From contig SVGL01000006.1 in assembly GCA_015056325.1 (NCBI GenBank), positions 62,001-126,000 on the forward strand: a DNA stretch of 64,000 nucleotides. The letters run 5' to 3'. The notes beneath the pieces were generated by a model. The model was given only the letters and a program-made list of their open reading frames with translations. It made no database searches and had not been told where the DNA came from. A program made the position numbers and the translations under genes. This document shows positions 23,036 through 62,822 of the stretch, in pieces (position 1 is the first letter of the stretch; the number at the start of each line of letters is the position of its first letter). Origin of the DNA: Clostridiales bacterium (GTDB taxonomy: Bacteria; Bacillota; Clostridia; Christensenellales; Aristaeellaceae).

Positions 23036-23167
23036 GTTTTTGAAGAAACCTGTGCCGTAGACAGCCGGTGTCCACTGGACGTAAAGGGGCTCGCCCCGCC
23101 TGCCGAGGTGTAATGGATATAGCATGACTTTGCTCATCCCTTGCACCTGTTGCAAGGGTTTTCTTTT
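23036..23167 (+). ncRNA. Ribosomal protein L10 leader with attenuator
   Basis: It contains the hallmark segments of the L10 leader RNA: CCGTAGACAGCCGGTGTCC and, about 40 nt later, CCTGCCGAGGTG, which form the multi-stem structure bound by the L10(L12)4 complex. It is followed by CCCTTGCA-CCTGT-TGCAAGGG (23138-23158) and TTTTCTTTT, a transcription attenuator. Excess L10/L12 should bind here and reduce expression of rplJ-rplL. Confidence 0.88.
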
Positions 23168-23199
23168 ACTCCAAACCTTTAAGGAGGTGCAAGAAAGAA

Positions 23200-55047: not shown

Positions 55048-55133
55048 GCAGAATGGAATGTTATGCTGGTGGGCGTATGTCCCCGGAAGAGCGCATTCTG
55101 CCTATCATTGCACGCCTCAGGAGGTCTCCCCTG

Positions 55134-55700
55134 ATGAACGATACACCTCTGATTCTGGCCTCAGCCTCGCCCCGTCGGCGGGAGCTGATGGCCCTGACCG
55201 GCCTCCCCTTCACGGTGGACGCCCCCGATGTGGACGAGAGCTGTTCCCTGCCCCCGCGCGAGGCGGTGATGGAGCTCTCCCGGCGCAAGGCGCTGGCTGC
55301 AGCGGCTCTCCACCCCGGCTGCGTCATCCTCGCGGCCGACACCCTGGTCGCGGTGGATGATGCCGCCCTTGGCAAGCCCCGCGACGCTGAGGATGCCTTC
55401 CGGATGCTGCGCAGCCTCTCCGGCAGATGGCACCAGGTGTACACTGGCGTAACCGTGGTGGACGCAAAGGGCGCCATCCATTGTGAGGCCGACAGCACTG
55501 ACGTCCATTTTGAAGCCATGTCCGACGAGGCCATCCGCCGCTACATCGCCACCGGCGAACCGATGGACAAAGCCGGCGCCTACGCCGTGCAAGGCATTGC
55601 TGGCCTGTGGATCGATCAGCTGCACGGCAGCCATACCAATGTCATCGGCTTGCCGATGGCCCTCACCCGCCGCCTGCTGGAAGACTGCGGCCTCCTGTAA
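55134..55700 (+). CDS. maf: Maf-family nucleoside triphosphate pyrophosphatase
   Basis: A 188-residue house-cleaning enzyme that hydrolyses non-canonical or modified nucleotides (dTTP/UTP-type Maf). It begins with the family signature PLILASASPRRRELMALTG (residues 5-23); further motifs are ILAADTLVAVDD near 68, GKPRDAEDAFRML and AGAYAVQGIAG near 148. The start at 55134 follows AGGAGG. Maf genes commonly precede mre genes, as here, and overproduction blocks septation in Bacillus. Confidence 0.95.
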   Translation: MNDTPLILASASPRRRELMALTGLPFTVDAPDVDESCSLPPREAVMELSRRKALAAAALHPGCVILAADTLVAVDDAALGKPRDAEDAFRMLRSLSGRWHQVYTGVTVVDAKGAIHCEADSTDVHFEAMSDEAIRRYIATGEPMDKAGAYAVQGIAGLWIDQLHGSHTNVIGLPMALTRRLLEDCGLL

Positions 55701-55705
55701 GCGTT

Positions 55706-55895
55706 CGCAAAAATGCAGACAGCATTTTTGCGAGGATTGCACGCGCTCACTGGTCGTGCTAATGCCTTCCCGGCCGTTCGCTTGTGTAAGGATATTTCGC
55801 CTGACAGCGAAATTCGAAAATCACCGCACATGTCGCTGATTTTCGATTGACAGTCTGCCGACGGCGGATATCTTTTGCTAAGGTTTTCTCACATT
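55706..55895 (+). repeat. Structured intergenic module upstream of mreB
   Basis: About 190 bp with three hairpins: CGCAAAAATGC/GCATTTTTGCG (55706-55732), ATTTCGC/GCGAAAT (55794-55813) and CGAAAATCA/TGATTTTCG (55815-55845, loop CCGCACATGTCGC). A conserved tail ACAGTCTGCCGACGGC follows, overlapping a possible promoter TTGACA (55847-55852), 16 bp, TATCTT (55869-55874). A related module lies at 61801-61987 before minD. Confidence 0.8.
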
Positions 55896-55921
55896 TTTGA
55901 TTAGTAGAAGGATGAACAGAT

Positions 55922-56944
55922 ATGCATTTTTTCGCCCCTGATATGGGTATTGACCTTGGTTCCTCCAACACGCTGGTGTATGTGAAGAAGCGCGGCATCG
56001 TCATCAGCGAGCCGACGCTGGTAGTTGTCTCCGGCACCAACAAGAAGCAGGTTCAAAGCGTCGGCGACGAAGCCCGCCGCGTCCTGGGCCGCGTGAATGA
56101 TTCCAAGACCATCATCCGCCCTATCCGCAACGGCGCCATCGCTGATTTCGACATGACCACCCTGCTGCTGAAGTACTTCATCCGCAAGGCCATCGGCGCC
56201 AGCAATGTCATCCCGCCCAAGGTGGTCATCTCCGTGCCCGCCGGTATGGACGACGTCAACCGCCGTGCCATCACCGAAGCTGTTCAGCGTGCCGGCGTGA
56301 AGAAGGTCTACCTAGTGGAGAAGCCCTTTGCCGCAGCGCTGGGCTCCAATCTGCCAGTGTACGACCCCATCGGCTCCATGGTGGTGGACATCGGCGGCGG
56401 CACCACAGATGCCGCTGTCGTATCCCTGGGCGGCCTGGTGGTCAGCCAGTCCATCCCCGTGGGCGGCGCCAAGATGGATGAAGCCATCATCAACCACATC
56501 AAACGCGAGTTCAACATGCTCATCGGCGACCGTACTGCCGAGGACGTCAAAATTGACCTGGCCTCCGCGATGCCTGCGCTGGAGGACCGCTCGGTACGCA
56601 TCCGCGGCCGGGATCTGCTCTCCCCCCAGGCCATGGACATCGAGTACACCTCCCGCCAGGCCTACATGGCCGTGCATGAGCCCTGCCGCGCCATTGTGGC
56701 CGCCATCCGCTGGGTGCTGGAGCGCACGCCGCCGGAACTGGCCAAGGACATCATGCGCACCGGCATCCACCTGACCGGCCGCGTCGCCCAGCTGTACGCA
56801 ATGGATCAGTACATCGCCAGCGAGCTTGGCATTCCGGTGCTCATCGCCAAGGAGCCCGGCGACTGCACGGCCCTGGGCCTGGGCTACATTGTAGAGAACA
56901 TGGCCATGCTCCAGGAGCAGGGCCACATGCCCAGCCAGGCCTAA
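55922..56944 (+). CDS. mreB: Rod-shape actin homologue MreB
   Basis: A 340-residue cytoskeletal ATPase that organises the elongation machinery. The phosphate-1 loop MGIDLGSSNTLVYVKKRGIV starts at residue 8; VVDIGGGTTDAAVVSLGG near 160 is phosphate-2, and HLTGRVAQLYAMDQYI near 283 is the adenosine motif, where most MreB have LTGGGA. The N-terminal HFF may be the membrane-binding part. The Shine-Dalgarno is AGAAGGA. It heads the mreB-C-D-mrdA-minD-rodA cluster. Confidence 0.95.
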   Translation: MHFFAPDMGIDLGSSNTLVYVKKRGIVISEPTLVVVSGTNKKQVQSVGDEARRVLGRVNDSKTIIRPIRNGAIADFDMTTLLLKYFIRKAIGASNVIPPKVVISVPAGMDDVNRRAITEAVQRAGVKKVYLVEKPFAAALGSNLPVYDPIGSMVVDIGGGTTDAAVVSLGGLVVSQSIPVGGAKMDEAIINHIKREFNMLIGDRTAEDVKIDLASAMPALEDRSVRIRGRDLLSPQAMDIEYTSRQAYMAVHEPCRAIVAAIRWVLERTPPELAKDIMRTGIHLTGRVAQLYAMDQYIASELGIPVLIAKEPGDCTALGLGYIVENMAMLQEQGHMPSQA

Positions 56945-59230: not shown

Positions 59231-61798
59231 ATGAGCAATGTATCACAGCATGATCCCCACAAGGGCATCGGCTGGCGATTCTACGTGTTCATCGGCATAC
59301 TGCTGCTGATGTTCGGTTACCTGGCCAGCGGCCTGGTGCGCCTGCAGCTGGTCAACAGCGAGGAATACCGGGACAAGGCCAAGGACGTCCGCACCAAAAC
59401 CATTGTGCTGCGCGGCAAGCGCGGCAATATCACCGACGCCGACTCTGTCATTCTCGCCAAGGACGAGTTGGTCTACAACATCACCTTCTACAAGGACGGC
59501 TCCAACGTTGCCAAGTCCGACTATTATGAGTACACCCAATCCATCATCGAAACCATCCAGATCATCGAGCGCAACGGCGGTGAGCTGGCCTTCGATTATG
59601 TCATCGCCCGGGATGAAGTGACCGGGGAGTGGGTGTTCGACTTCGGCTCCGGCGTGTCCGAATCCGTCCTTCAGACCCGCGAAGATCAGTGGCGGAGCAA
59701 CAACTATGTGACCGCCCGCTCCTACCCCACGGCGCAGGACTGCCTGCAGCGCCTCAAGCGCAAGTACCGCATCGCCCAGAACGAGGAGGACATCGCCTCC
59801 TACAAGGAGATCGAGGGCGACAAGTACGAGGATGTCATCATCCTGGAAGAGGATCTGATGCTCAAGGTCATGGCGGTCTATTCCGAGATGCAGATGAACC
59901 TGTTCAACTCCCTGCCCATTCCGATTGCGGAGGACGTGGCCTACGAGACCGTCATCGAAGTCGAGACCAAGTCCATGATGCTGCCCGGCATGGGTGTGGA
60001 GATCGCCACCAGGCGCGTCTACCCCAAGCACACCCTGGCCGCGCAGATCATCGGCTACGTTGGCAAGATCCCCAGCCGTACCAAGTGGCTGGAACTCCAG
60101 GCCGAGGGCTACTCCTATAATGATGTGATCGGCCGCGACGGCATCGAGTATTCGATGGAATCCTGGCTGACCGCCTCCTCCAACCGTACCCAGGGCAGCC
60201 GTGTGGTGGAGCGCAACAACCTCTCCACCGTCGTGCGCGAGCTGGACTACACCGAGCCCGAGGATGGCAACAATGTCAAGCTGACCATCCGCAGCGCCTA
60301 CCAGCAGCAGGCGGAGCGCGCCATCGCCAGCAACGTGGAGCAGATCCGCGACAAGCAGGAGGCCCTGATGGTGGACTCCTCCTGGCTGGAGGACAACCGC
60401 ACCGACATCGCCAAGCGCAACTGGGAGCAGTATCCCCTTGAGCTGGCCGAGCACGGCGTCATGGTCGTGCTGGACATGCAGGACCGCGTGCTGGCGATGG
60501 CCAACTTCCCCACCTATGACCTCAACGCCCTGGTGGGCGCCGGCGCTGAAGCCCGCGCCATCCTGGCAGATGACCGCAACCTGATGCTCAACTACGCCAT
60601 CGGTTCCCGTGCGACCCCCGGTTCCATTTTCAAGATGGTCACCGGCTTCGGCGCGCTGTCCGAGGGCGAACTGAGCCCCAAGGAGCGCTTCACCGACATG
60701 GGCTATTACACCAAGTACAACTCCGACGAGTCCACCGCGCCCAAGTGCTGGATCTCCGAAGGCCAGCGCCATAAGCACAACGCCCAGACCATCGTGGAAG
60801 CGATTGCAAACTCCTGCAACTTCTTCTTCTACGAGATGGGCGACCGCCTGGGCGAAGATCGGCTGTACCGCTATTCCTCCCTCTTCGGCCTGACAAGCCT
60901 GACGGGTATCGACCTGCCTGGCGAAGTCCGCAGCGTGGTGGGCAGCCAGAACACCCTCTACGACCCCTCCAAGGCTCTGGGCGAAGCGTATCAGGATACG
61001 TCCATGCCCATCATCGTTTACAACTCCCTGAAGACCCATCTGCGCAAGTGCGGCGCCAACCGCGGCCTGGAATACGAGGATGAGCGCCTGTCCGTCGCTG
61101 CCAAGCGCCTGATGGACATGGCCATCAACTATCCTCAGGGCGAGTGGGTGCCCCAGATGCGCATTATCCTGATGGAAGAGCTGGGCATGACCAAAGAGAT
61201 GGTTTATCTGAACGCCGTCATTCAGGATGCCTACATCTACCTGAATGATATCAAATGGGGCGGTCAGCAGACCATCCTGACGGCCATCGGCCAGTCCGTT
61301 ACCACCATCACCCCCATCGCGGCAGCCCGCTATGTTGCAGCGGTTGCCAATGGCGGATACATCTACAACGTGTCTATCATCGACTCCATCATCAGCCCCG
61401 AGGGTGAGATTCTCTCCCAGCGTGAGCCCACCCTGGTCAATACCCTGGACGACCCCAACGATTACATGGGCCTGATCCGCAAGGGCATGGCGGGCGTTAC
61501 CGACGATACCGGTACCGCGCGCAACTACTTCCGCGACTACCAGAACGTGCAGGACGTCATCGCTGCGAAGACGGGTACCGCGCAGGTTACCTCCATTGAC
61601 CTGGAGAACAACGCCTGGTTCGTGTGCTTCGCGCCCCGCGAGAAGCCTGAGATCGCCATCTGCGTATTCGTGCCCCATGGCTACTCCGGCGGTATGGCGT
61701 CTATCGCCGCCCGTGACTTCATCGACTGGTTCCTGGACCAGACCGAACTGCGCACGACGGATTACATCCTGCCGGCTGGCAACAGTCTGGCCCCCTGA
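59231..61798 (+). CDS. mrdA: Penicillin-binding protein 2 (elongation transpeptidase)
   Basis: An 855-residue class B PBP, longer than typical (about 600-720). A single N-terminal membrane helix (FYVFIGILLLMFGYLASGLV, residues 18-37) is followed by the pedestal domain and a transpeptidase domain with SIFK (in TPGSIFKMVTG, catalytic Ser near residue 465), SCN (AIANSCNFF) and KTG (AAKTGTAQVTS near 780). It crosslinks lateral-wall peptidoglycan with RodA as partner, whose gene follows minD. AAGGGAGG precedes the ATG. Confidence 0.95.
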   Translation: MSNVSQHDPHKGIGWRFYVFIGILLLMFGYLASGLVRLQLVNSEEYRDKAKDVRTKTIVLRGKRGNITDADSVILAKDELVYNITFYKDGSNVAKSDYYEYTQSIIETIQIIERNGGELAFDYVIARDEVTGEWVFDFGSGVSESVLQTREDQWRSNNYVTARSYPTAQDCLQRLKRKYRIAQNEEDIASYKEIEGDKYEDVIILEEDLMLKVMAVYSEMQMNLFNSLPIPIAEDVAYETVIEVETKSMMLPGMGVEIATRRVYPKHTLAAQIIGYVGKIPSRTKWLELQAEGYSYNDVIGRDGIEYSMESWLTASSNRTQGSRVVERNNLSTVVRELDYTEPEDGNNVKLTIRSAYQQQAERAIASNVEQIRDKQEALMVDSSWLEDNRTDIAKRNWEQYPLELAEHGVMVVLDMQDRVLAMANFPTYDLNALVGAGAEARAILADDRNLMLNYAIGSRATPGSIFKMVTGFGALSEGELSPKERFTDMGYYTKYNSDESTAPKCWISEGQRHKHNAQTIVEAIANSCNFFFYEMGDRLGEDRLYRYSSLFGLTSLTGIDLPGEVRSVVGSQNTLYDPSKALGEAYQDTSMPIIVYNSLKTHLRKCGANRGLEYEDERLSVAAKRLMDMAINYPQGEWVPQMRIILMEELGMTKEMVYLNAVIQDAYIYLNDIKWGGQQTILTAIGQSVTTITPIAAARYVAAVANGGYIYNVSIIDSIISPEGEILSQREPTLVNTLDDPNDYMGLIRKGMAGVTDDTGTARNYFRDYQNVQDVIAAKTGTAQVTSIDLENNAWFVCFAPREKPEIAICVFVPHGYSGGMASIAARDFIDWFLDQTELRTTDYILPAGNSLAP

Positions 61799-61800
61799 CG

Positions 61801-61987
61801 GGTTTGCCAAAAATGCAGCCGAAATTGTGCAAGGATTTGCACTCCCCCACTGCTCGAACAGCAAGCTGTTCTCCCGGCCGTTCGCTCACGCAAGAAAGCG
61901 TCTCATATCTGAAACGCACGAAAGCCACCGCACATGTCGCTGGCTTTCGATTTACAGTCTGCCGACGGCAAATTACTTTTACTAAGG
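61801..61987 (+). repeat. Structured intergenic module upstream of minD
   Basis: Related to 55706-55895 in the same order: CAAAAATGCAG, CCCGGCCGTTCGCT, a hairpin GCGTCTC/GAAACGC, then CGAAAGCCA/TGGCTTTCG (61919-61927 with 61941-61949) around the identical loop CCGCACATGTCGC, then ACAGTCTGCCGACGGC. An additional hairpin GAACAGC/GCTGTTC lies at 61855-61871. Possible promoter: TTTACA (61951-61956), 17 bp, TACTTT. Confidence 0.8.
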
Positions 61988-62000: not shown

Positions 62001-62822
62001 ATGAGTACCGCATGGATCATCGCCTCCGGCAAGGGAGGCGTCGGCAAAAGCACCATCACAGCCTGCGTGGGCCTCACCATGGCCCGCGAAGGCCGTAAGG
62101 TCTGCATCGTCGATGGTGATGTGGGCTTGCGCGATCAGGATGCGCTGCTGGGCTTGGAGAACAATGTCGTCTTCGACCTGCTGGATGTGGCAGAGGGCCA
62201 TTGCCGCCTGGAGCAGGCGCTGATCAGCCCTGAGGCTGAGGATCGACTCTCCCTGCTGCCGGCCAGCCAGTTTGCCCGTGCCAAGGAACTCAAGCCTGAC
62301 TGCTTCCGCCGCATTCTCAAGCGCCTCAAGCAGCTTTACGATGTGGTGCTCATCGACTGTCCTGCCGGTATCGAGAGGAGCCTTCGCGGCCTCCTGAACG
62401 AGGAGATTGACCAATGCATCCTCGTCTGTACCCCGGACGATGTTTGTATCCGCAATGCGGAGCGCGCCTGCGGCGTGCTGGAAAAGAAGGGCATGCCCCG
62501 CCCCCGCCTGATCGTCAACCGGCTGGATGACGCACTTATCCGCGGGGAAGAGATGTACTCCGCTGCTACCGTAGCCGCTACGCTGGACCTGGAGCTCCTG
62601 GGCGAGATTCTGGATGACTCCTTCGTCTACCGGGCCACACTGACCCATCAGCACCTGATGGACATTGAATGTGACGCCCAGGCAGCCCTCACCCGCATCG
62701 CCTGGCGTATGATGAACGCCCCGGATGTGGATCCGCTGCCCGGCTACGGCACGCAGAAGCTCAGCTGGTTCCGCCGGCTGTTCCAACCCACCCTCAAGGA
62801 GGTCAAGCGCATTGATCGCTGA
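62001..62822 (+). CDS. minD: Septum-site ATPase MinD
   Basis: A 273-residue ParA/MinD-type ATPase. The deviant Walker A KGGVGKST lies at residues 11-18, VDGDVGLRDQDALLG is switch I, LIDCPAGIERSL is Walker B/switch II. The C-terminal amphipathic membrane-targeting helix is QKLSWFRRLFQ near residue 253. MinD normally recruits MinC to block polar division and is moved by MinE or DivIVA-MinJ. Neither minC nor minE is adjacent. The gene overlaps the rodA start by 11 bp. Confidence 0.93.
   Translation: MSTAWIIASGKGGVGKSTITACVGLTMAREGRKVCIVDGDVGLRDQDALLGLENNVVFDLLDVAEGHCRLEQALISPEAEDRLSLLPASQFARAKELKPDCFRRILKRLKQLYDVVLIDCPAGIERSLRGLLNEEIDQCILVCTPDDVCIRNAERACGVLEKKGMPRPRLIVNRLDDALIRGEEMYSAATVAATLDLELLGEILDDSFVYRATLTHQHLMDIECDAQAALTRIAWRMMNAPDVDPLPGYGTQKLSWFRRLFQPTLKEVKRIDR

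Follow-up and report, generated by a model that had tools for sequence, protein, structure and literature searches.

Hairpin-built repeats ahead of mreB and minD in a Clostridiales genome are very probably old insertions of a dispersed MITE-like element

Two structured blocks of ~190 nt precede an mreB-family gene and a MinD-type gene in the 64,000-nucleotide stretch of Clostridiales DNA that we analyzed (the window; source assembly of 3.06 Mb, labeled G000). We conclude with good confidence that these blocks are old insertions, private to this lineage, of a dispersed MITE-like element, whose younger copies in related genomes carry IS1182-type ends and lie between duplicated stem-loops. The data also favor, with rather less assurance, the broader proposal that insertion of this hairpin-built MITE family and of an IS1182-type partner gives rise to a second copy of the entire terminator stem-loop, and that the DNA hairpin itself determines how long the duplication is. 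The initial annotation had placed the blocks at 55706-55895 and 61801-61987, where both are indeed present, and had read them as a possible regulatory element shared by mreB and minD, with a dispersed repeat that landed here twice as the alternative. It is the alternative that fits. The features of the two sites, all on the forward strand, are as follows.

55053-55700, +, Maf-like nucleotide pyrophosphatase gene 5' of the mreB-side copy (TIGR00172, above cut-off); its stop codon adjoins the element
55701-55865, +, mreB-side copy, conserved part (model match 55705-55846; right border uncertain, maybe extending to ~55907)
55705-55733, +, hairpin P1 of the mreB copy (covariation: 7 of 11 pairs changed on both sides)
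55736-55791, +, hairpin P2 of the mreB copy, long and imperfect (apical part backed by covariation, 5 of 10 pairs)
55794-55813, +, hairpin P3 of the mreB copy (the second stem of the initial annotation)
55815-55845, +, hairpin P4 of the mreB copy, loop CCGCACATGTCGC (the main hairpin of the initial annotation; covariation: 7 of 11 pairs changed on both sides)
55847-55874, +, promoter-like match TTGACA-16-TATCTT, overlapping the conserved tail (consensus match only)
55850-55865, +, conserved tail ACAGTCTGCCGACGGC of the mreB copy
55922-56944, +, mreB-family gene, 340 aa, 3' of the block (PF06723, 8e-110; TIGR00904)
59231-61798, +, penicillin-binding protein 2-like gene 5' of the minD-side copy (TIGR03423, 8.5e-108, below its cut-off)
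61804-61969, +, minD-side copy, conserved part (model match 61804-61950)
61805-61831, +, P1 remnant of the minD copy, pairing mostly lost
61836-61894, +, hairpin P2 of the minD copy
61898-61917, +, hairpin P3 of the minD copy
61919-61949, +, hairpin P4 of the minD copy
61954-61969, +, conserved tail ACAGTCTGCCGACGGC of the minD copy
62001-62822, +, MinD/ParA-type ATPase gene, 273 aa, 3' of the block (TIGR01968, 211.5 bits, slightly below the cut-off of 212.9)

The element is a putatively non-coding row of hairpins, P1-P4, followed by a tail. Chance ORFs overlap the block, and aligned copies carry indels in P2 and P3 that are not multiples of three. The minD copy shares 73% identity with the mreB copy (E 4e-18 in a DNA search with the latter), and the two score 120.6 and 127.5 bits, respectively, against a covariance model of which both are part, so that these scores are high by construction. 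On its left side the mreB copy starts with AGCGTTCGCAAAAATGC, which by eye is similar to the left end AGCGTGTCGAAAAAGTGC of copies in the sister species G002 and overlaps the stop codon region of the upstream gene. The 13-nt P4 loop CCGCACATGTCGC is the same in both copies (55824-55836 and 61928-61940), and two pairs of the P4 stem differ between them with both sides changed and pairing kept, as the initial annotation had described. P3 is almost wholly replaced between the copies. The claim of the initial annotation that this second stem also changed with pairing kept holds in full for the mreB copy, in which ATTTCGC/GCGAAAT pairs throughout, and in part for the minD copy, in which, from reading the sequence, six of seven positions pair and one is C-A. 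Folding of the single copies improves modestly on dinucleotide shuffles (z -2.46 and -1.72 for the mreB and minD copies). Across the whole window the only Rfam matches at gathering score are a tRNA and a ribosomal protein L10 leader (23037-23173; RF00557, 56.3 bits), both outside the blocks.

Base pairing among copies of the element appears to be maintained, a conclusion that the alignment of copies supports. With the core pattern 98 copies were gathered, of which 33 passed a completeness rule and 27 were aligned; six copies with P1 interrupted by inserted DNA were omitted, which raises the P1 pair counts. Over the 34-pair structure, standard pairs fill 96.9% of cells in the 27 copies (shuffled mean 86.1), 21 of 34 pairs are changed on both sides (shuffled mean 10.5; 0 of 500 shuffles as high) and the covariation score is 0.305 versus 0.125 in shuffles. 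When the structure is shifted by 1-3 columns, 32-52% of cells pair. The contrast is weaker for further pair types, of which there are 40 versus 33.1 in shuffles (1 of 500). Because shuffling leaves the relatedness of the copies in place and the structure came out of this very alignment, it is the effect size that counts and not the 0/500. The proposal that pairing is kept despite changed sequence is supported by the pairs changed on both sides, and covariation in relatives, on which the initial annotation had staked its structural argument, is present. As a side observation, CGCCCCGCCCCGCCGGGAAACCCGGCGG replaces P4 in 13 of the 98 copies by a loose pattern (for example L018, L020, L022 and L024), defining a second subtype.

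What caused this covariation is a separate matter. In quasi-palindrome correction, a template switch during replication copies one hairpin arm onto the other, so that both arms change together. Such correction, rather than selection on structure, is a possible but not a favored source of the covariation, and it would fit the mobile-element reading too. Entire arms do swap at once between copies, for example GCTTTTCC/GGAAAAGC versus GCGATTTTG/CAAAATCGC in P3, a hairpin for which we counted 24 distinct exact-complement arm pairs across 85 of the 98 copies. However, the P4 loop and the unpaired joints are nearly constant among copies while the stems vary, which suggests some constraint on form. 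Compensatory changes between repeat copies alone need not mean a regulatory RNA.

The element is short, multi-copy and dispersed, as is typical of a MITE. With up to 52 candidates scored in each genome, the covariance model finds 32 matches in the own genome at E ≤ 0.001, the dozens of copies by which the initial annotation would have recognized an ordinary repeat. Within the window, any match beyond the two blocks has an E value of 7.5 or worse. DNA searches return 15 own-genome matches with the mreB copy (E ≤ 0.001) and 23 with the minD copy (E ≤ 1). Covariance-model matches occur in 23 of the 60 genomes searched, namely in 17 of 18 of the genus (G005 has none), in 5 of 18 from other genera of the family and in 1 of 24 from elsewhere in the order. 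Sequence search alone places the element in 13 of 40 genomes, every one within the genus. By the covariance model, copy number is very uneven among species, with at least 52 in G002 versus 0 or 1 in G005, G001 and G003. These copy numbers are lower bounds because the repeat breaks the assembly at contig ends; in G002, a contig terminates no more than a few hundred bases away from most of the 20 unpaired element ends examined. The exact core pattern is found in 83 related contig stretches, all from MAGs of Clostridia, Clostridiales or Oscillospiraceae and many from ruminant gut, and in one scan it was absent from viral contigs, giving no phage link by that pattern.

The younger copies in G002 reveal how such an element may insert. 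They run from CAG[CG]GTGTCGAAAAAG to TTTTTTGACAGTCTG or variants, with sharp borders, and measure about 204-386 bp between their repeats. The left-end pattern has 74 matches in G002 and a control pattern has none. Of these left ends, 16 lie too close to a contig end, 58 were retrieved and 49 had enough sequence to be testable. Comparing the left flank of each copy with what follows its right end, against a null of 2352 cross-pairings of copies, we found flanking direct repeats above the 99th percentile of the null in 40 of the 49 testable copies, 27 of them above the null maximum, and no flanking duplication in the other 9. Most of the testable G002 copies thus carry target site duplications. 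An initial cross-genome survey, with a set that overlaps the G002 set, found flanking repeats in 27 of 31 scoreable copies and in 5 of 8 outside G002.

The duplicated sequences are host terminator-like stem-loops, one on each side of the element, as judged from their folding and flanks. The 40 repeats are 12-43 bp long (median 26), every one folds better than its own shuffles (z < -2), the weakest (L274) being 12 nt with three pairs, and in 29 of the 40 at least four T lie within 8 nt 3' of the right copy, as in terminators. Duplication length follows hairpin span with a correlation of 0.94, a value that is partly circular in that the hairpin was folded within the repeat. When the empty sites of these copies are rebuilt, stem ends lie near the borders and are often extended by weak pairing of the flanks; if the target is folded along with its flanks, no more than 17 of 40 place the outermost G-C pair of the stem at most 4 nt from each border.

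A candidate partner is found in the same genome. A PF13751 profile search of six genomes gave matches in G002 and G007. The G002 locus, L162, is an intact IS with a 479-aa transposase that scores above the cut-offs of PF13751, PF05598 and PF01609, and its 415.1 bits against NCBIfam NF033551 (cut-off 270) assign it to the IS1182 family by a curated threshold. Its ends, CAGCCTGTCAAAAAAG and CTTCTTTGACAAGCTG, border the transposase gene, and outside both lies the 25-bp palindrome AAACCACCCGTCAAACGGGTGGTTT, one copy on each side. The left end of the element and its TTTTTTGACAGTCTG right end agree with those of the IS at 14 of 16 positions, and the variant right end at 11 of 16. The G002 copies thus have terminal inverted repeats in common with an autonomous IS, and the window copies, by the left-end pattern at up to two mismatches, do not. 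A transposase of the L162 type or a relative probably moves the element, although the link between element and IS amounts to ~16 bp per end and the style of target.

Several observations bear on where this partner resides. The family model detects no IS1182 transposase in the own genome and places one above cut-off in only 2 of 60 genomes, though the repeat is in 23 of the 60; in the other species the transposase source may have disappeared, be missing from the assembly or be another one. The gene next to the L162 IS, followed in relatives in search of an empty target, has an orthologue only in G005, with a different neighbor. The IS1182-like gene of G007 (L163) seems, by eye, to have different ends. 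Readings of the element as an integron attC site or as related to IS1202 were also considered; a literature search on IS1202 and terminators yielded nothing useful.

These data suggest the following mechanism. In related genomes the younger copies share with the IS1182-family IS the imperfect terminal inverted repeats CAGNNTGTCNAAAAA and are bracketed by duplicate host stem-loops, in most cases terminators. The terminator stem-loop, extruded as a hairpin or cruciform, would be the target. An IS1182-type DDE transposase would join the 3' ends of the element at both 5' feet of the stem-loop, and gap repair would then copy the whole stem-loop to both sides, giving a duplication with a length set by the hairpin and no fixed stagger. 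The structure of the G002 insertions is that predicted by pathway b of the model in PMC5678879, in which attack at the 5' feet duplicates the whole stem-loop; we infer the use of this pathway, like the cut positions and transposition itself, from the insertion products. The initial idea of a protein-binding cruciform may survive in another form, given reports that a related family of transposons targets stem-loops or cruciforms.

The window copies lack these signatures. At fixed offsets, none of 17 own-genome copies, both window copies included, has flanking repeats above chance and hence a target site duplication, and the left-end pattern of G002 finds nothing in the own genome even when two mismatches are allowed. 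The window copies may be old copies that arose in the same way and then lost their ends and duplications, or may represent a subfamily that, like IS1272, inserts with a different result and replaces the stem-loop.

The hairpins of the element carry insertions of their own. Longer, gene-bearing DNA lies inside the P3 loop at L080, L087, L088, L142, L147, L143 and L149 and inside P1 at L146 and L148. The loop inserts always start near the apex and carry a TnpV-like small ORF (by eye) and ABC transporter-like genes, and at L143 and L149 the P3 insert is bounded by matching inverted ends. The TnpV-bearing inserts (L080, L087, L088 and L146) were considered as the autonomous partner and rejected, as they look like separate mobile DNA inside hairpin loops. 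A second repeat, GGCCATCACCGGGACAAGCCCGGCGCTGGCTA and what follows it, lies inside P2 or P3 of many copies (L020, L026 and many in G002), with 22 distinct contexts counted among the loci examined. The element may in turn offer its hairpin loops as landing sites.

With the element placed among mobile DNA, three functional readings of the blocks can be weighed. The best of these, although still an unlikely one, is that the mreB copy was co-opted as a promoter, its insertion separating mreB from the maf-like gene and supplying TTGACA-16-TATCTT. The match (55847-55874) agrees with consensus at 10 of 12 positions and lies ~48 nt ahead of the start codon, and relatives have a short gap before mreB; against this, it is a consensus match alone, with 0.4 expected in shuffles of the stretch, and no promoter-like match was found in the minD copy. 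Accordingly, the claim that the tail sits in a promoter-like context in both copies stands for the tail ACAGTCTGCCGACGGC itself, which both carry, and for the promoter context of the mreB copy, and fails for that of the minD copy.

We consider it less probable still that the element is primarily a structured RNA with its own function, for example as an attenuator or transcript-end module, dispersed and kept by selection at numerous 3' ends and only secondarily mobile. Strong covariation, the near-invariant P4 loop and position all speak for it, as in 14 of 17 own-genome copies the closest ORF on the upstream side terminates on the same strand, and in 12 of these no more than 10 nt separate its stop from the approximate left border. 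Against it stand the stem-loop duplications and transposon-like ends, the very uneven copy number among species and the lack of any Rfam family at gathering score, an E-value scan of 55650-55950 returning only nuoG in the mreB copy, far below threshold (E 1.4; 14.2 bits versus 33).

The reading with which the analysis began fares worst. None of the 11 sister species (G001-G011) has the block core or loop before mreB, where their gaps are short, and the core is absent before minD in 10 of 10 readable sister species, G003 offering only 73 nt of upstream sequence; in three of these ten a loose match to the 13-nt loop ~270-300 nt 5' of minD (L195, L197 and L198) lies within coding sequence and lacks the core. 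Because the orthologous gaps lack the core, the blocks are private to this lineage, and a conserved mreB/minD cis-regulator is therefore ruled out. A shared cis-acting RNA or protein-binding element controlling the two genes, for which one could cite the same orientation of two copies just 5' of cell-shape or division genes, the promoter-like match of the mreB copy and the covarying stems, is exceedingly improbable given 32 matches in the own genome, empty orthologous gaps, a minD copy with no promoter-like match and the orientation of the 17 copies examined, of which 16 have a downstream ORF and 11 of these point at its end and not its start.

An apparent regulatory element is thus better read as a mobile one. 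If the proposed insertion mode is correct, a stem-loop-duplicating branch that was merely drawn as a possibility for IS1272 operates at dozens of sites per genome, the terminator of the upstream gene is rebuilt on the far side of the element, and the hairpins of the element carry further insertions in their loops. Duplicating a terminator instead of deleting it would be a gentle mode of insertion, which may explain the tolerance of dozens of copies. With ~40 natural insertion products, a single genome speaks to the question of how a DDE transposase can recognize and cut a DNA stem-loop. In the open-licence papers searched, we came across no account of an IS1182-type MITE duplicating stem-loops.

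Among known systems, the BOX and RUP elements of pneumococcus are modular intergenic repeats that are short, structured and multi-copy. By description alone, our element resembles them in being short, intergenic, structured and multi-copy, and differs in belonging to another host group. The L162 IS has ends that match those of the element at 14 of 16 positions, and its insertion site is a terminator palindrome that flanks it left and right; it differs in carrying a 479-aa transposase, where the element has ~204-386 bp with a row of hairpins instead. IS1272 and TnSha1 of staphylococci are reported to have 16-bp inverted repeats and targets with no sequence consensus (PMC4923244, PMC5678879). 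IS1272, of the IS1182 family, inserts into inverted repeats and replaces them with no duplication (PMC5678879), and TnSha1 inserts into hairpins, several of them RNA-seq-confirmed terminators, with deletion (PMC4923244). In those accounts they share with the system described here an IS1182-family transposase and inverted-repeat or hairpin targets that include transcription terminators, and the G002 copies likewise have stem-loop targets of the IS1272 type. However, whereas IS1272 and TnSha1 are there described as deleting or replacing the stem-loop, the G002 copies duplicate the whole of it in 40 of 49 testable cases.
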